In this document: piece after piece, positions 1,583 to 58,720 of the stretch
Layout of the letters: every line of letters starts with the position of its first letter
Numbering within the stretch: the first letter of the stretch is position 1
NCBI RefSeq assembly: GCF_011059105.1
Contig: NZ_JAALLS010000017.1
Span: 1 to 64,000, forward strand
DNA: 64,000 nt
DNA from: Fodinibius halophilus
GTDB taxonomy: Bacteria > Bacteroidota > Rhodothermia > Balneolales > Balneolaceae
Direction: 5' to 3'
The notes under the pieces: generated by a model
What the model saw: only the letters and a program-made list of their open reading frames with translations
Told to the model about the DNA's origin: nothing
Database searches by the model: none
Made by a program: the position numbers and the translations under genes

Positions 1583-3499
1583 ATGTCAGAAAAACTCAAG
1601 ATTAAATTTGCTGGAAGATTTATAGATTTGTTAGGGCAACAAATGTATGGAGGGCCTGTTCCAGCCGTTGCTGAACTTGTTGCTAACGCATGGGATGCTG
1701 ACTCTAAAAAGGTTGAAATTAAGGTGCCTGAAAACTTGACTGATGATTCCGTAATTGTGGTTAAGGATAATGGAAGAGGCATGACGTTTGAAGAGCTAAA
1801 TAAATTTTATCTTAATGTGGGCTATGAACGAAGGAAAAAAAGAGGAGAAAAAACAGAGGGCGGAAGACCTGTAATGGGGAGAAAAGGAATTGGTAAGTTA
1901 GCTGGCTTCGGAATTGCAGAAGATATTGTATTACGCTCTGTTAAAGATGGTAAATTAGTCGAGTTTACTCTGAATTATGCAGAGTTAAGGAATAAGAAAG
2001 AGTTGGATGGTTTTGAATTTATTCCTAATAAAATTGAAAAAACTTCAGAGAAAAGTGGAGTTACAGTAATCTATCAAAACCTTAAACTAGAGCGTTCAAT
2101 TAATAGGGAGCGCTTTAAAAAAAGTATGGCTCGAAGGTTTGCTTTGAATACAGAACAGATGCAAATCTTAGTCAATGGAGATGCATTAAAAAAGGATGAT
2201 TTTGAATTTGAACATCGGATTCCTTCAAAAGGTTGGCAAAAAGAAGAGATTGAAGAATTTGGTGAAGTAGAATATTGGTTTGGTTTTACAAAAAATACAA
2301 TTGATGAACCTGAGTTACGTGGCATTTCTGTTTTTGCAAGAGATCGTGTTGCTCAATTCACTCCATTTTTCTTTAATCTAAGTGGTGGAATTACAGGCCA
2401 AGTTGGACTTGAATATTTAACAGGCCAGGTAAAGGCAAATCAACTAGACGAAAAAGATGATTACATAGCAACTGATAGACAAACAGTAAACTGGCAATTT
2501 AATAAGCCTCAGATTTTAGAAAAATGGGGGAAAGGAAAGATTAAAGAACTTTGTAAAAATTGGAAAAAAAGAAGAGATCAGGCAAAACGTGATAGGTTCA
2601 AACATGAATATTCCGAATTTAATGAGCGGATTCAAAGGTTGTCGACTCAAGAAAAAGAAGATATTACTTCCGCACTAGACAAAATCGCTTTAATTGAGAG
2701 AATCAATGAGGAAGATTTTAAAACCATTGCTGGTTCTATGATACAGGGAGTAGAACGAGAAAGTGTTAGAAAAGTAATAAAAAGAATTAATGAAACTGAA
2801 GAAGGGGCTCTTCCTGAGTTAATTCAAGCAATTAAAGAGTGGGATATTATTAGTGCAGTTTCAACTGCAGAAGTAATTTTTGGTAAAATTGAAATAATAG
2901 AACAGTTCAAAAAACATATAGATAATAGAATACCGGAGAAGAGTCCTCAGGGCAAATTAGATATGCAGGATTTTATTAAGGATTATCCTTGGTTGCTTGG
3001 ACAAAAGTATGAACATTTAACTCCTGCTGATTTTCATCATGAAAAAGGGGTTGACAAATGGATAGAAGAGGTACTCAAAGATACTAATAAAGAATTTAGC
3101 AGTGGGACCAAAAGAGAAAACCGTCGCTTTGATCTACTTTGTATGACAAACGATTGGCAAATCGTAATATTAGAATTGATGCGCCCAGGTTTATCAATTG
3201 ATTATGATCATGTGATGCGACTCAATAGATATGTAACAAGGGTTAAAACAGCAATTGAAACAAAGGGCACGGCCTCCGAATTTAGTGGAATGAATGTAAA
3301 AGGAATTTTAATTGCAGATAAACGAAATAATGACCCTTCCTTAAATGAAACCATAAATAATCTGAATACTACATTAAAAACAGTCACTTGGGATAGTTTG
3401 TTTGAAACAGTTCAGGGTAGATATAAAACTTATTTAGATATTTTAAAGATGAAAGCACCTGAAGACCCAAGAATTAAAGGATTAGTAGATTTAAATTGA
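1583..3499 (+). CDS. GHKL (MutL/MORC-like) ATPase with possible nuclease tail
   Basis: The first ~120 residues carry the GHKL ATP-binding motifs: ELVANAWDAD (31-40, the N-box Glu and Asn), DNGRGM (62-67) and GRKGIGKLAGFG (99-110). This is the arrangement of MutL/Hsp90/MORC ATPases. The middle (~330-450) is helical and charged. The C-terminal part contains RRFDLL...VILELMRPG (514-536), in which Asp517 and Glu531 are spaced as in PD-(D/E)xK-type nucleases, although the usual Lys is replaced by Met-Arg. MORC/MutL-like ATPases linked to DNA methylases and Vsr nucleases are a known arrangement in restriction-modification loci. The ATG start fits the motif positions. The stop overlaps the upstream edge of the methyltransferase frame, so the two genes are probably co-transcribed and translationally coupled. 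The gene is visibly more AT-rich than the housekeeping genes, consistent with transfer. The ATPase assignment is firm; the nuclease assignment is tentative. Confidence 0.85.
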   Translation: MSEKLKIKFAGRFIDLLGQQMYGGPVPAVAELVANAWDADSKKVEIKVPENLTDDSVIVVKDNGRGMTFEELNKFYLNVGYERRKKRGEKTEGGRPVMGRKGIGKLAGFGIAEDIVLRSVKDGKLVEFTLNYAELRNKKELDGFEFIPNKIEKTSEKSGVTVIYQNLKLERSINRERFKKSMARRFALNTEQMQILVNGDALKKDDFEFEHRIPSKGWQKEEIEEFGEVEYWFGFTKNTIDEPELRGISVFARDRVAQFTPFFFNLSGGITGQVGLEYLTGQVKANQLDEKDDYIATDRQTVNWQFNKPQILEKWGKGKIKELCKNWKKRRDQAKRDRFKHEYSEFNERIQRLSTQEKEDITSALDKIALIERINEEDFKTIAGSMIQGVERESVRKVIKRINETEEGALPELIQAIKEWDIISAVSTAEVIFGKIEIIEQFKKHIDNRIPEKSPQGKLDMQDFIKDYPWLLGQKYEHLTPADFHHEKGVDKWIEEVLKDTNKEFSSGTKRENRRFDLLCMTNDWQIVILELMRPGLSIDYDHVMRLNRYVTRVKTAIETKGTASEFSGMNVKGILIADKRNNDPSLNETINNLNTTLKTVTWDSLFETVQGRYKTYLDILKMKAPEDPRIKGLVDLN

Positions 3500-3504
3500 G
3501 ATCA

Positions 3505-4527
3505 ATGAATACCTATATTTCAGCAGATTTATTCTCAGGTTGTGGCGGACTCTCAGCGGGAATGTCTGAAGCTGGCTTTGATGTGAAAGTGGCTATTGAG
3601 AATAATGAATATGCAATTAAAACTTTTAAAAAAAACCATGGAGATTGTGAGGTAATATCAGAAGATATTAGAAAAATATCGCCTGAAGAGGTTCAAGAAT
3701 ATTTAGGTGATAATATATTGCATCTACTTGCCGGTTGCCCTCCTTGCCAAGGGTTCTCTTCAATCAGAAAATTGAACAAAAAAAGAAGCAGAAAAGACCC
3801 ACGCAATGCATTGGTCGATGAGTATTTAAGATTTGTTGAAGGAATTAAGCCATTGACTATAATGATGGAGAATGTACCCGGCCTGGAAAGTTACTATAAG
3901 TTTGATGATTTAATTCGGGGGTTAAAAAAACTGGATTATAAACTAGACTATAGAGTAGTTAATGTTAAAAACTATGGAGTTCCTCAGAGCAGGCGACGCC
4001 TTGTTTTAGTAGGTTCATTATTAGGAGATATAGAGGTAGCTGAAGAAACCGGTGAAGCGAAAACAGTTAGAGAAACATTTGATGAAATCGAGTCATTTGA
4101 AGAAACAACAGATCCTCTTCATAAAATAACTGTTAACCATACAAAAAGAATTCAGAAGTTAATTTCCGAGGTCCCGCATAATGGGGGAAGTTTGAGTGAT
4201 GTAGATCCCGAATATTTGTCTTGTCATCAAAAAGAAAATGTAGGTTTTAATGATGTTTATGGTCGCCTAAGATGGGATGATTACTCTACAACCATTACCG
4301 GAGGCTGTTTAAATCCGTCAAAAGGAAGATTCCTACATCCGGAAGAAGATAGAGTGATTACTCCTCGTGAAGCATCTTTATTACAGACATTTCCAAAGGA
4401 TTATAAATTTTCAACAGACATGCCCAAGAATGCCTTGGCTTCTATGATTGGTAATGCCCTACCTCCGAAATTCAGTTATATACAATCAAATAATATTAAA
4501 GAACATTTAAACCAACAGTTACAATAA
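3505..4527 (+). CDS. DNA (cytosine-5-)-methyltransferase
   Basis: This is a C5-cytosine methyltransferase that transfers a methyl group from SAM to cytosine in a specific DNA site. Motifs appear in canonical order: I DLFSGCGG near the N terminus, IV PPCQGFS with the catalytic Cys at about residue 81, VI ENVPG, VIII GVPQSRRR, a variable target-recognition stretch, and X GNALPP. Length (340 aa) is normal for a monospecific enzyme. A TTG at 3496 in the same frame overlaps the ATPase stop, but the ATG at 3505 starts directly at the family N terminus and is preferred. It lies between the GHKL ATPase and the HEPN-like and Vsr genes. A Vsr partner usually accompanies C5 methylases, since it repairs T:G mismatches arising from 5-methylcytosine deamination. 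The target sequence cannot be read from the protein. Confidence 0.95.
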   Translation: MNTYISADLFSGCGGLSAGMSEAGFDVKVAIENNEYAIKTFKKNHGDCEVISEDIRKISPEEVQEYLGDNILHLLAGCPPCQGFSSIRKLNKKRSRKDPRNALVDEYLRFVEGIKPLTIMMENVPGLESYYKFDDLIRGLKKLDYKLDYRVVNVKNYGVPQSRRRLVLVGSLLGDIEVAEETGEAKTVRETFDEIESFEETTDPLHKITVNHTKRIQKLISEVPHNGGSLSDVDPEYLSCHQKENVGFNDVYGRLRWDDYSTTITGGCLNPSKGRFLHPEEDRVITPREASLLQTFPKDYKFSTDMPKNALASMIGNALPPKFSYIQSNNIKEHLNQQLQ

Positions 4528-4585
4528 TTAAGTTTTAGCAATTTGAGTGAGACAATAAGTACCAAAAGCTCAATAAAAGTTATGT

Positions 4586-5182
4586 TTGTGTGTAAATATT
4601 CAACAAACCTTTAACTCACTCTCTTATTACACTGCATTTATAGAAGAAAATGAGGTAATAATTAAAGGACGGGATATACCTTCTAGAGAGCCTCATATGG
4701 ACTCTGCAGTTCTTGATTCTCTGTGGTTTCAAATAATCCTCGACTCTTGTTCTTTTTTGGATGAGTGGGACAGTATATTAGGCGTAAAGACAGAAAAAAA
4801 ATTTAGAAATAGAATACTCAAAGTAAAAAAAACAGCAGCGGTTGCTTCAAGAGCAGTTAGATCTTGGAAAGATCTTCGAGACTTTAGAAATGAAGTGATT
4901 GCACATAACTTCAGAGACAAGACATATAATTTCACATTTGATAGAATGGCCCATTATGATTGTCCTCAATCCCATGATGAGCTTTGGTATTTGGTCAATT
5001 TTATTGATCGTATGGCAAATGTTTTAGCAAATGAGTTCCCCAAAAAATCTGCAGATATTTTGAAAGAATTTCCTAGAACAATGGGCTCTGAAGAGCATAG
5101 AGCAAATAGAAAAAGTTTACAGGAATTAAATGAGTTGCTTAAAAAAGTAGATAAAGAAATTTCATTTCATAAAGAGAAGTAA
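4586..5182 (+). CDS. HEPN-like protein of the defence island (unrecognised family)
   Basis: I do not recognise the full-length family. It is a mostly helical protein of about 198 aa containing LRDFRNEVIAHNFRDK (98-112). This fits the Rx(4-6)H signature of HEPN domains (Arg101, His107), many of which are RNases in abortive-infection or toxin modules such as AbiU2. The start is uncertain: an in-frame stop lies at 4574, the first candidate is TTG at 4586, and the first in-frame ATG is at residue 38, which would cut conserved-looking sequence. It sits 58 bases after the methyltransferase and 33 bases before vsr, in the same direction and with the same AT-rich composition. A structural, non-catalytic HEPN fold remains possible. 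Confidence 0.6.
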   Translation: MCVNIQQTFNSLSYYTAFIEENEVIIKGRDIPSREPHMDSAVLDSLWFQIILDSCSFLDEWDSILGVKTEKKFRNRILKVKKTAAVASRAVRSWKDLRDFRNEVIAHNFRDKTYNFTFDRMAHYDCPQSHDELWYLVNFIDRMANVLANEFPKKSADILKEFPRTMGSEEHRANRKSLQELNELLKKVDKEISFHKEK

Positions 5183-5215
5183 TTAACAATCTTATATGAT
5201 ATAAAGCATTAAAAA

Positions 5216-5632
5216 ATGGCTGATATCTTCTCAGAAGATAAAAGATCTGAAATTATGAGCAACATCGGGTCCAAGGATACAAAACCCGAATTGTTCATAC
5301 GAAGTCTCACGCATCGTATGGGCTACCGCTTTCGGCTTCACAGAAAAGATCTACCCGGCACCCCCGATTTAGTTTTTCCCAAGTATAATAGTGTTATTTT
5401 TGTACATGGTTGTTATTGGCACGGTCATGAAGACTGTAAAAAAGCATCCATTCCTGATACCAATACAGAGTTTTGGAAGAATAAGATCCAAAAAAATATA
5501 GATCGAGATCACAGGAACTATAAAGAATTGGAAGAGTTGGGTTGGGAGTATTTAATTATCTGGCAATGTGAAATTAGGGAAGAAAATATTCCTGAACTCA
5601 AAAAGAAAATAGATAGTTTTCTGCAGGAATAA
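5216..5632 (+). CDS. vsr: Very-short-patch repair endonuclease
   Basis: Vsr nicks DNA 5' of the T in T:G mismatches produced by deamination of 5-methylcytosine. The N terminus MADIFSEDKRSEIMSNI, the metal-binding Asp51 in PGTPDLVF, and FVHGCYWHGH (62-71) with conserved Cys and His residues match the family closely, as does the length of 138 aa. The ATG start is clear. It is the last gene of the ATPase-methyltransferase-HEPN-like run and ends 11 bases from the convergent HNH gene. Its presence predicts that the methyltransferase makes 5-methylcytosine that would otherwise be mutagenic. Confidence 0.95.
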   Translation: MADIFSEDKRSEIMSNIGSKDTKPELFIRSLTHRMGYRFRLHRKDLPGTPDLVFPKYNSVIFVHGCYWHGHEDCKKASIPDTNTEFWKNKIQKNIDRDHRNYKELEELGWEYLIIWQCEIREENIPELKKKIDSFLQE

Positions 5633-5643
5633 TTAAATCTGTT

Positions 5644-6624
5644 TTATCTCCCTGTTTTAAACTCCTCATACCGCTCTTCCAGTGCCTCTTGGCTGGGCAG
5701 AAATTGTTGTTTGTCAGGCAGTAATATCTGCTCGCGGTCCCAGGCTAAGGTGTCATCAATATTTTCGCCTCTGTTTTTCAGCCAGGCAGATAGTTTTATT
5801 TGGTAGTCGGGCCGAATGCTGAGCAGCTGTTTGTCAAACATCCAGTGATGGGTTTTACACAGGGCCAGTCCATTGCGGGGATCGTCGTTCTTACTTCTGT
5901 TCCAAGGTATAATATGAGCGCCTTCAACCAGCGATTTCCCACTAGGGGTTTGTACTTTGGCCCGGCAGATGGCACAGCGGTGGGTATAATTCTGACGGAC
6001 ATTTATCCGAAAGCCCTGTTTGCGCTGCTGTTTCTTTTGCCATGAGTAGGAGGGAGCGTTATCATCCGTATGATATTTTTCAAACGGTTCTGCGGCCAGC
6101 AGTTCCAGCTGCTCGGCATAGCGGTACGCCCCAATGTTTATCCGATGTATACTCTGTATCTCTTCCCGAAGATCTTCCGAAAAATAGTGCCGGATGATGG
6201 TTGAACTGATACGCTGTTGTCCCTCCTCATCCTGCATCATCGCAAATAGCTGATCATCCATCCGGGCATGGCTAAGGCGCTTCATCAATCCGCCCAGCGA
6301 CGGGGAGTTGCTGTATGGGGTCATGCCCTCCCGGTAGTGTAAATCCCAAAAGGGTTCGCTCTTCATATGGAAGAAGGGGAGGGCGATGGTTGTTTTACGA
6401 TCTTCGCCCATTATCCTATTCCAGTAGCGAAAGAAGGTTTCTATCAGATCCTGGGTTAAGGTAATTCTCGGATCATCAATCCAGCCGATCTCAATGCCAT
6501 CCAGAATACTGAGCAGTAAAAAGGGTTTATGGGGTGCCCGTTGGAAAGTCCGCTGATCCCAAGTCGTGGAATCTTTGTTGGCGTTTAGATCTTTTAACGA
6601 TGATAGAATCTCTTTCTGAGTCAT
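5644..6624 (-). CDS. HNH endonuclease (COG3440-like predicted restriction enzyme)
   Basis: The last third contains an HNH (beta-beta-alpha-metal) core: a CAIC pair, then EGAHIIPWNRSKNDDPRNGLAL, then CKTHHWMFD. The sequence shows the Cys pairs for structural zinc, the AHIIPW motif, the Asn and the terminal HH. The N-terminal ~200 residues (APHKPFLLLSILD, ...WNRIMGED...) are the helical region usual for COG3440-type putative HNH restriction endonucleases. The ATG at 6624 gives the family's usual length (326 aa). It converges on vsr from the opposite strand and its base composition is closer to the housekeeping genes, so it may have arrived independently. It could serve as the restriction activity for the neighbouring methyltransferase, but such genes also occur alone, so that pairing is an inference. 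Confidence 0.85.
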   Translation of the reverse strand: MTQKEILSSLKDLNANKDSTTWDQRTFQRAPHKPFLLLSILDGIEIGWIDDPRITLTQDLIETFFRYWNRIMGEDRKTTIALPFFHMKSEPFWDLHYREGMTPYSNSPSLGGLMKRLSHARMDDQLFAMMQDEEGQQRISSTIIRHYFSEDLREEIQSIHRINIGAYRYAEQLELLAAEPFEKYHTDDNAPSYSWQKKQQRKQGFRINVRQNYTHRCAICRAKVQTPSGKSLVEGAHIIPWNRSKNDDPRNGLALCKTHHWMFDKQLLSIRPDYQIKLSAWLKNRGENIDDTLAWDREQILLPDKQQFLPSQEALEERYEEFKTGR

Positions 6625-9066: not shown

Positions 9067-9108
9067 CACCAGGCCTCCTCGAGAATGATATGATTTTTAT
9101 TACAAGGC

Positions 9109-9300
9109 CATCAACGCTTGTCATTGCGCGGTGCCCCGTTTTACGGGGAGGAGTACCGTGGGCTGTCGGGACGACGCGGCAATCCCCATGAAATAGTTGG
9201 TTGATGTGCAAAGGCTACCCTTCAGCTACTACGCGAGCTAAGAAAGGGAGACTGCCGCGGGCTTCCGGGAAATCACCGGAATCCCTCGCAGTGACATTGC
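9109..9300. repeat. Repeat family B, copy 1 (left flank of GIY-YIG gene)
   Basis: It starts CATCAACGCTTGTCATTGCG and ends CCTCGCAGTGACATTGC, so its two ends are roughly inverted (GTCATTGCGAG against CTCGCAGTGAC). It matches 9848-10024 and 13172-13347, apart from an extra segment GTGCCCCGTTTTACGGGG inserted near its start. Its right edge lies 42 bases from the stop codon of the GIY-YIG gene, and the opposite flank of that gene carries an inverted copy of the terminus. Confidence 0.85.
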
Positions 9301-9337
9301 TTCTTTGTTATCGTGTAAGTTCCTCATAGAAGTATCG

Positions 9338-9601
9338 TCAGTTCGGGTTTAACTCTTCAATTAACTCTAATTTCTTCTTTCGAGAGCCTGCCTTAATCTG
9401 CTTTTCCCGGTCAATGGCATCCTGCGGATGGTTATATTCCTCAATATACACCATTTTTGTGCAGTTATAGCGTTTGGAAAAGCCATCTATCAATTGTTGC
9501 TTGTATTGCCAACCCCGTTTTATAATATCACTCGTCATACCAGTATAGAGTACGGTGTGATGGGCGTTGCTCATGATATAGACGTGATATTTTTTTGCCA
9601 T
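9338..9601 (-). CDS. Small GIY-YIG nuclease-domain protein
   Basis: This is a single-domain GIY-YIG protein of 87 aa. It shows YHVYIMSN (first motif) followed by VLYTGMTSDIIKRGW (YTG in place of YIG, with the conserved Arg), then YIEEY with the metal-binding Glu, and AIDREKQIKAGSRKKKLELI. Small proteins of this UPF0213/YhbQ-like type are predicted nucleases of unknown role. I chose the ATG at 9601. A longer TTG frame reaching 9652 would start inside the right-hand repeat. A 5-bp hairpin (9602-9617: AAGAT / ATCTT) abuts the ATG on the mRNA. Inverted family B termini lie on both sides: CTCGCAGTGAC at 9285-9295 and GTCATTGCGAG at 9658-9668. The arrangement is similar to the second GIY-YIG gene at 45701. 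Confidence 0.85.
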   Translation of the reverse strand: MAKKYHVYIMSNAHHTVLYTGMTSDIIKRGWQYKQQLIDGFSKRYNCTKMVYIEEYNHPQDAIDREKQIKAGSRKKKLELIEELNPN

Positions 9602-9649
9602 AAGATAGTAAGATCTTTTTGAGAAGTGTCCCTTACAATCCTTTTTAAC

Positions 9650-9824
9650 CAACGCTCGTCATTGCGAGCGGAGTGGAACGCAGCGCGGCAATTTCCAAGA
9701 CATAGTTTCTAATAGTTTGAAGGTTGCCCTTTAGATACTACGCGGGTCTATTCTGGGAGATTTACTTCGTCGTTATAAGCAACTCCTCCCCGTAGAATGG
9801 GGCACAGCGTAATGACACTGCTTT
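9650..9824. repeat. Repeat family B, diverged copy (right flank of GIY-YIG gene)
   Basis: It begins AACGCTCGTCATTGCGAGCG and ends near GGGGCACAGCGTAATGACACTGC. It is closer to the 205-400 segment than to the three near-identical family B copies. Its start gives the inverted partner of the 9285-9295 terminus across the GIY-YIG gene. Confidence 0.75.
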
Positions 9825-9847: not shown

Positions 9848-10024
9848 CATCAACGCTTGTCATTGCGAGGAGTACCGTGGGTTGGCGGGACGACGCGGCA
9901 ATCTCCATGAAATAGTTGGTTGATGTGCAAAGGCTACCCTTCAGCTACTACGCGAGCTAAGAAAGGGAGGCTGCCACGGTTTTTCGGCGGCTGCCCGTAA
10001 GGTGGGGTGTGTAAAGTAAAGGCC
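9848..10024. repeat. Repeat family B, copy 2
   Basis: This copy is nearly identical to 13172-13347 for the first ~140 bases (GTCATTGCGAGGAGTACCG, then GACGACGCGGCAATCTCC, then GCTACTACGCGAGCTAAGAA). It ends GGGGTGTGTAAAG, an ending also seen at about 740-750. Confidence 0.85.
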
Positions 10025-13171: not shown

Positions 13172-13347
13172 CATCAACGCTTGTCATTGCGAGGAGTACC
13201 GTGGGTTGGCGGGACGACGCGGCAATCTCCATGAAATAGTTGGTTGATGTGCAAAGGCTACCCTTCAGCTACTACGCGAGCTAAGAAAGGGAGACTGCCG
13301 TGGTTTTTCGGCGGTTGCCCGGAAGGTCGGGGTGTGTAAGGTAAAAG
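13172..13347. repeat. Repeat family B, copy 3
   Basis: This copy is nearly identical to 9848-10024 and ends in GGTCGGGGTGTGTAAGG. It stops a few bases before the 3' end of the GH31 gene, so the repeat lies immediately downstream of that coding region. Confidence 0.85.
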
Positions 13348-45105: not shown

Positions 45106-45606
45106 AAAACAGTCTGGATTTTTACATTTACCAATCGCCTTAATGATAATAAAAGATCACTTCAGATGTGATAAGGAAAGTGGACTATTTAGAGAGGGAG
45201 ATTAGGTGATTAAGTTATTAGTGTATGCTGAGACAAGATGCGTGACTCGTGATAAGCGAAGGTGGGATGTTGGAAGTTGGAGTAACCGTCGTCAATCATC
45301 TGTTGTCTGTTAGTGGTTGTCGATTGTCGATTGTCGGTGGTCGGTACATTTTTAATACTTCATACTTTTCACTACATAATTATAAGTCAACCACTAAGAC
45401 ACTAAGGTCACTTAGCCATCTTAAAACTGGGGTGTGTATAATGAACTCTGTCCGGGCTGCTTACTATGGGGTAAGTCCAGTGGCAGGTGATCTTCAAATC
45501 GAATTATTAACTGTTTGCTGATAGGTACTTCCCTGAGCTCTATGTCAGTTGTAGTTTTTGCTATTTGTTTTCGTGATAGATTGAATAATAGAAAAGACGA
45601 ACTACA
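45106..45606. other. Gene-free region with word-like repeats
   Basis: 45185-45420 carries repeat phrases (GGTGGGATGTTGGAAGTTGGAG, CGTCGTCAATCATCTG, GTTGTCGATTGTCGATTGTCGG, CCACTAAGACACTAAGGTCACTTAG). The open frame at 45249-45521 is built from these and is rejected. 45421-45606 has no recognisable feature. Confidence 0.65.
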
Positions 45607-45635
45607 GATCCTGAAACAAGTTCAGGATGACAAGA
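45607..45635. repeat. Left arm of perfect inverted repeat flanking GIY-YIG gene
   Basis: This 29-base sequence is the exact reverse complement of 46086-46114. Within the arm, ATCCTGAA and TTCAGGAT form an 8-bp stem-loop (written here in the 46086 orientation). It resembles the widespread bacterial repeat of the GTCATCCTGAA...AGGATCTC type. Confidence 0.9.
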
Positions 45636-45700: not shown

Positions 45701-46027
45701 ATGCGTTTTCAAAACATTGTCACACAGAGAGGATATGTTTATATCCTATCCAACAAAACGAGAAGAGTTCTCTACATTGGTGTTACTGGTAACTTAGTTA
45801 AGAGAGTTTGGTTGCATAGACAAGGACTAGGGTCAGAATTTACCCAGAAGTATAGAACTAAGTATTTAATTCACTATGAGTCTTTTAAACATATTGAAAG
45901 AGCCATTAACAGAGAAAAACAGCTTAAGAATTGGCACAGGGAGTGGAAGCTCAATTTAATAAGAGAACATAATCCAAAGTTTAGAGATCTTTGGCCCAAA
46001 ATTCTACTTAGGAGAAATTATTTTTGA
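45701..46027 (+). CDS. Small GIY-YIG nuclease-domain protein (repeat-bracketed)
   Basis: A single GIY-YIG domain of 108 aa: GYVYILSNKTRRVLYIGVTG with GIY-like and YIG motifs, then LVKRVWLH with the conserved Arg, the Glu of IHYESF, and AINREKQLKNWHREWKLNLIREHNP. A hairpin CTTACTT/AAGTAAG (45682-45700) abuts the ATG and could mask ribosome entry. The gene sits centrally between two exact 29-base inverted repeats, 65 bases upstream and 58 downstream. It is AT-rich and shares this layout with the 9338-9601 gene. Proposed: a mobile or repeat-associated nuclease. Its role cannot be proven here. Confidence 0.85.
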   Translation: MRFQNIVTQRGYVYILSNKTRRVLYIGVTGNLVKRVWLHRQGLGSEFTQKYRTKYLIHYESFKHIERAINREKQLKNWHREWKLNLIREHNPKFRDLWPKILLRRNYF

Positions 46028-46085: not shown

Positions 46086-46114
46086 CTTGTCATCCTGAAC
46101 TTGTTTCAGGATCT
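46086..46114. repeat. Right arm of perfect inverted repeat flanking GIY-YIG gene
   Basis: Exact inverted copy of 45607-45635. It lies 58 bases after the GIY-YIG stop. Related palindromic cores appear inside element C at 58799-58936 (GTCATCCTGAATTCAG) and, more distantly, at 10040-10167 (GTCATTCTGAGCTTGTCG). Confidence 0.9.
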
Positions 46115-58412: not shown

Positions 58413-58524
58413 ACGTCTGTCTGCATTCCGTGCTGGGCAAAAGCACATATCTTTTCGGGGAATCTCAGCCAAAATTCAAGCGCAAGACGTTTTTAAAAAG
58501 TCTCTTCCCCTACGGGTAGGGGAA

Positions 58525-58720
58525 GAACAAGAGGGGGTCAGAACCAACTCAATACTCCCAGTCTCACATCTCGGAGGCAAAAGAACAAGATGGGGTCCGA
58601 ACCAACTCAATACTCCCAGTCTCACATCTCGGAGGCAAAAGAACAAGATGGGGTCAGAACCAACTCAATACTCACAGTCTCACATCTCGTAGGCAAAAGA
58701 ACAAGATGGGGTCAGAAAAT
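58525..58720. repeat. 58-bp tandem repeat, about 3.4 copies
   Basis: Three full copies start at 58525, 58583 and 58641, with a partial copy from 58699. They differ by single substitutions (for example GAGGGGGTC against GATGGGGTC). Each includes CCAACTCAATACTCCCAGTC and TCACATCTCGGAGGC. There are no variable spacers, so it is not a CRISPR array. 58721-58798 and 58937-59013 hold no recognisable gene. Confidence 0.9.

Follow-up and report, generated by a model that had tools for sequence, protein, structure and literature searches.

A single-domain GIY-YIG nuclease gene and the CGTC/TGTC-tagged palindromes around it probably constitute one mobile system, RAYT-REP-like in organisation and equipped with an unrelated nuclease. 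Genes were observed with a cognate repeat on either side, the type and orientation of the repeats were linked to nuclease lineage, catalytic residues were conserved, deletion derivatives were common and occupied sites differed between close species. Cutting of the hairpins and movement driven by the nuclease are inferred from the RAYT-REP analogy and from GIY-YIG biochemistry, no biochemical data being available for this system.

Nuclease genes and repeats of the window

The window, the complete 64,000-nucleotide stretch of Fodinibius halophilus DNA that was analysed, contains two such genes. The relevant features are as follows.

9120..9295 (176 nt), no strand assigned: left repeat unit GTCATTGCG...CTCGCAGTGAC (sequence, repeat family, genome matches, end hairpins)
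9285..9295, minus strand: inner arm CTCGCAGTGAC (sequence)
9338..9601, minus strand: GIY-YIG nuclease gene (PF01541 match; 87 codons from ATG; profile match 9317-9601 with one TGA)
9658..9816 (159 nt), no strand assigned: right repeat unit GTCATTGCGAG...CAGCGTAATGAC (sequence, direct match to left unit)
9658..9668, plus strand: inner arm GTCATTGCGAG (sequence)
9859..10007, plus strand: extra unit copy, shortened and gene-free (repeat family D2; right edge approximate)
13183..13331, plus strand: extra unit copy, gene-free (repeat family D2; right edge approximate)
45606..45634, minus strand: palindrome AGATCCTGAAACAAGTTCAGGATGACAAG, before the 45701 gene
45701..46027, plus strand: second GIY-YIG nuclease gene (PF01541, 51.4 bits; catalytic residues intact)
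46086..46114, plus strand: palindrome CTTGTCATCCTGAACTTGTTTCAGGATCT, after the 45701 gene (TGTC tag, 8-bp stem, 5-nt loop)

The 9338-9601 gene runs on the minus strand from an ATG at 9601 to a stop at 9338-9340, and its product scored 45.3 bits against PF01541. The TGA at 9338 corresponds to Trp in relatives and homology continues to 9317; an A2 profile of relatives matched G000:C9:9317-9601, crossing one TGA. An intact relative with Trp at the TGA codon was located in the closest species (G014). The window copy is probably decaying.

The preliminary description had placed inverted arms, CTCGCAGTGAC and GTCATTGCGAG, at the termini of this gene. Both arms were present with 10 of 11 bases paired, and the spacing of 42 and 56 bases from stop and start was right; however, the arms are only the inner ends of the longer units 9120-9295 and 9658-9816. 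Each unit starts with GTCATTGCG and ends with CGYARTGAC, the layout being unit-gene-unit with GTCAT...ATGAC units. The outer ends (9119-9154 and 9782-9817) were 89% complementary, and the flanks of the locus matched more strongly in direct (score 40) than in inverted orientation (score 18). GTCATTGCGAG was present in 17 copies in the 4.19 Mb genome compared with 1 for a reversed control pattern, and a BLAST search of the genome for DNA similar to 9100-9340 gave about 60 matches. An unpaired CGTC tag lies at 9657-9660 in the right unit. Arms of the ATTGC...GCAAT and ACTGC...GCAGT types are present in the 9.1-9.8 kb units but are longer and interrupted, and folding of the piece 9655-9697 was no better than that of shuffled sequence.

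The inverted palindromes previously described around the 45701 gene were recovered as two perfect 29-nt copies (45606-45634 and 46086-46114) with ATCCTGAA stems and 5-nt loops, the TGTC tag at 46088-46091 being unpaired. The two window genes belong to two subfamilies of what is probably one nuclease-repeat system. Ten PF01541 matches, UvrC among them, were obtained in the F. halophilus genome. One of these genes (C45:104086) is bracketed by a palindrome identical in type to that of the 45701 gene and another (C40:581) is located amid GTCACTCCGAG repeats.

Further observations were made on GIY-YIG genes. The C39 gene (L016:104-274, G000) is truncated by an inserted GTCAT-type repeat that is translated as CHSELVSES. 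The C37 gene (L003, G000) seemingly lies within an integron cassette; it and L065 (G001) represent a different GIY-YIG clade located between short inverted repeats resembling integron attC sites, and an integrase-like gene fragment adjoins L003.

RAYT (Y1) transposases, 8 matches to which were found in the F. halophilus genome, were considered as mobilisers of the GTCAT repeats and rejected, as palindromes of other kinds were found at the six loci inspected. RAYT-like genes at L147-L150 (G000), each with its own, differing flanking palindromes, represent a classical REP system.

Elsewhere in the window, an apparent restriction-modification cluster was identified by reading the sequence at 1583-6624 (GHKL ATPase-like protein, cytosine methyltransferase, Vsr-like nuclease and HNH protein). 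A 58-bp sequence occurs three times in tandem at 58523-58717. At 852, 8822, 10265 and 12885 lie four copies of a further, 187-nt repeat, which has no relation to the GTCAT units and is partly interleaved with them.

In the family to which both window genes belong, the GIY-YIG motif is present together with the catalytic Tyr, Arg, Glu and Asn, and Y14, Y25, G27, R35, H39, E72 and N91 were conserved in 126-128 of 127-128 proteins. The fold was predicted with a pLDDT of 90, the nearest solved structures being BH0048 and SLX1. No HUH Y1 transposase domain (PF01797) was found in the 9338 protein, for which PF01541 was the sole match.

Association of nuclease lineage with flanking repeats

GIY-YIG loci were collected from 92 genomes of the family Balneolaceae. 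In a tree of 99 proteins a nuclease clade of 49 was separate from a housekeeping clade of 20. Upstream and downstream flanks of 180 nt were compared by local alignment, inverted or direct, with a threshold score of at least 28. Matching repeats were found on both sides of 83% of nuclease-clade genes (n = 48) compared with 10% of housekeeping-clade genes (n = 20; Fisher p = 1.7e-8), and shifted control intervals of equal length at the same loci reached 28 in 2% of cases (1/44). Flanking repeats were far more frequent at the nuclease clade than in either control.

A set of named loci was chosen from GTDB species genomes by protein pattern alone. Among those with full flanks (n = 75), 71% reached 28 compared with 0.7% of shifted intervals. 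Flank pairs taken across different named loci reached 28 in 27% of cases because many loci share one repeat type. GTCAY hairpins were counted at 7.3/kb within 100 nt of the gene in the named loci and at 0-0.3/kb at a distance of 0.5-1 kb; the corresponding values in Balneolaceae were 4.1/kb and 0-0.2/kb. Taken over all 77 named loci, which represent about ten phyla, hairpin density next to the gene was ∼50-fold that at a distance of 0.5-1 kb. The strict GTCAY-hairpin test overlooks half of the Balneolaceae genes (24/48 were scored as neither) because stems vary; alignment scoring was employed in parallel.

The preliminary description had proposed that GIY-YIG genes and GTCAT palindromes form one system with subfamilies, and that repeat type would match nuclease clade. 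The flank controls support the former and the match was found. The fraction of locus pairs sharing a repeat rose from 3-4% at 30-40% protein identity to 84% above 60% identity, whereas it stayed at 1-2% in the housekeeping clade. Repeat and protein similarity were correlated with a Mantel r of 0.61 (maximum of 2000 permutations 0.18), calculated without 9 pairs having similar wider genomic surroundings. With downstream flanks alone r was 0.53, and with upstream flanks in which a 70-nt leader was masked it dropped to 0.29, still above every permutation. Orientation also tracks lineage: in the clade-A branch of MGYKNSSG type the GTCAT tags point toward the gene, whereas in the sister branch of MSKGYVYF type they mostly point away from it. 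A single consensus for all repeats was rejected, at least six sequence types being distinguished by clade. The pairing, first framed as a matter of Balneolota, was found there but extends far beyond it, to about ten phyla. The natural interpretation, that each nuclease recognises the repeat paired with it, remains an inference in the absence of binding or cleavage data.

Two side observations concern the flanks. A conserved TGTAAGG leader lies between palindrome and start codon upstream of 26/48 clade genes (expected 0.4), e.g. at 45.66-45.70 kb, and is followed by YTTAC in 10 genes; it is possibly an operator or an RNA hairpin. Another GIY-YIG clade (L069, L070, L075, L080, L092, L097 and L106), with up to three tandem gene copies, is bracketed by AAAAGCCTTCTGAA...CAGAAGGCTTTT palindromes and possibly represents a second, independent nuclease-repeat pairing.

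Copy number, deletion derivatives and differing sites

The palindrome GTCATCCTGAACTTGTTTCAGGATCT reached up to 73 copies per genome, compared with 0 for the reversed control. Clade-A genes were called with an A2 profile E-value of 2e-39 or better, a threshold set by the analyst. At least two copies of the CCTGAACTTGTTTCAGG repeat were present in 20/20 genomes with a clade-A gene and in 11/72 without (p = 1e-12). Repeat copy number was also associated with the cognate gene when permuted within genera (p = 5e-5). Many repeats were found without a clade-A gene in G067 (73), G045 (45) and G017 (23), which implies either loss of the gene or another agent spreading the repeats.

Gene-bearing doublets (repeat-gene-repeat) measure ∼400 bp. 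Doublets of 170-280 bp were also found in which both ends of the gene are kept and the middle is missing. With palindromes removed, the interiors of L152, L154 and L157-L161 aligned to gene-bearing elements; that of L153 did not, and that of L162 barely did. Visual inspection of the edges of those doublets that were read showed no target-site duplication, a feature expected of MITEs and of IS elements with terminal inverted repeats. Scar-type palindromes (gene-free, fused) were found in just 2/92 genomes, and scars therefore do not account for the many single repeats.

At the RecQ-Ddl locus the element is present in the window's species (G000) and in G012. G014, with a RecQ 96% identical, carries one fused palindrome at this locus, and neither element nor palindrome was found there in G009, G010, G011, G013 or G016-G019; G015 was unplaceable. 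The fused palindrome could be the product of precise excision or of deletion between 8-bp direct repeats. In G014, the closest relative of the 9338 gene is likewise arranged between these units but is found on the opposite side of the PAS-domain gene.

The main rival to a single mobile system is that the repeats are spread by another agent and the GIY-YIG gene is a homing parasite, which cuts the palindrome and is copied in by repair. GIY-YIG enzymes are classic homing nucleases, repeats do exist without genes, and in G014 the site consists of a palindrome without interruption, which fits this account without proving it. It is nevertheless unlikely: repeat copy number tracks the gene within genera, short doublets derive from gene-bearing elements, the gene-free fused form is nearly absent, and tree order at RecQ-Ddl favours loss in G014 over an old empty site.

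A nuclease serving the host, i.e. a non-mobile repair or hairpin-processing enzyme encoded near palindromes that it trims, is more doubtful still. The nearest folds are UPF0213 and SLX1, the latter a nuclease acting on branched DNA, but presence is patchy, most complete genomes have 3-16 PF01541 matches, occupied sites vary among close species, and decayed and tandem gene copies occur. Coincidence, with small intergenic genes lying amid dense repeats or terminators, is scarcely credible: the 9.1-13.3 kb region is repeat-rich, but the housekeeping-clade and shifted-interval controls refute chance for the family as a whole, lineage matching and the recurrence of the arrangement in about ten phyla oppose it, and the identical layout in G014 speaks against it in the individual case of the 9338 gene.

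If gene and palindromes do form one mobile system, the nuclease would recognise the hairpin formed by its cognate repeat, whether in extruded or in single-stranded DNA, and would nick or cut near the hairpin tip. Host repair or replication might then copy or move the gene-bearing unit, and short doublets and single repeats could be copied or moved in trans.

Relation to known repeat systems

CGTC-tagged REPs were defined by Di Nocera et al. (2013), who identified one family as Neisseria dRS3 and two others as the Rickettsia repeats RPE-4/RPE-6 and stated that these repeats "apparently lack a dedicated transposase" (PMC3733652). Both they and the present repeats have a CGTC/TGTC tag, a stem of 8-9 bp generally beginning with AT, a 4-5 nt loop, a short tail and frequent dimers; within the window, this stem and loop were seen at the 45.6 kb pair. 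The unpaired tag of CGTC-tagged REPs may also read CCTC. The tail is CTC in Balneolaceae and the window and CCA in "most" CGTC-tagged REPs (PMC3733652), and is thus not strictly defining. The CCA tail was seen in Azospirillum and Shinella repeats; stems open with AT in Azospirillum, Neisseria and Shinella and with GC in Novosphingobium.

No dedicated enzyme gene was described for CGTC-tagged REPs, whereas GIY-YIG genes are consistently bracketed here, and bracketed GIY-YIG genes are present in species named in that survey (PMC3733652). Such repeats enclose a GIY-YIG gene in Azospirillum lipoferum 4B, Novosphingobium aromaticivorans, Neisseria gonorrhoeae and Sinorhizobium meliloti, the last with a CTCAT variant of the tag; flanks matched in 12/14 inspected records. 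On plasmid p3 of A. lipoferum 4B (L302) the bracketed gene is located between sufB and sufC, which normally belong to one operon.

GIY-YIG genes lie between palindromes, with their own type in each lineage, in about ten phyla, and this makes the nucleases strong candidates for the enzyme that CGTC-tagged REPs were reported to lack; cleavage and nuclease-driven movement have not been shown. No earlier report linking GIY-YIG nucleases to REP-type or dispersed repeats was found in the open-access literature searched, which is no proof of absence. We are evenly divided on a broader proposal, in which the bracketed genes are a separate autonomous class of mobile element in about ten phyla, with a homing-type nuclease driving hairpin-ended DNA, and are the missing mobiliser of CGTC REPs, of Neisseria dRS3 and perhaps of Rickettsia palindromes.

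Among small bacterial repeats, CGTC-tagged REPs are common, and their mobilising enzyme was left open by the 2013 survey. A conserved, testable candidate is now available, with cognate pairs to assay. If this candidate is right, the REP lifestyle has arisen independently in a second class of enzyme, and a mechanism becomes available for repeats such as dRS3.

UPF0213/YhbQ-like GIY-YIG proteins (BH0048, 1zg2) equal the nuclease clade in fold and length but form a separate clade of the tree, the housekeeping clade without repeats. Free-standing GIY-YIG homing endonucleases such as the phage T4 seg genes (PMC2988022) share GIY-YIG catalysis and selfish intergenic spread; unlike them, the present genes have bracketing multicopy palindromes and deletion derivatives, and homing by conversion has not been shown here. 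RAYT/TnpA-REP systems with GTAG-tagged REPs and REPINs (PMC3116915, PMC8266576) resemble the present one in that the enzyme gene has its own type of repeat on either side, that doublets exist which are non-autonomous and that pairing is lineage-specific. They differ in the tag, GTAG rather than GTC (GTCAT), and in the enzyme, an HUH Y1 transposase where a GIY-YIG nuclease is found here.
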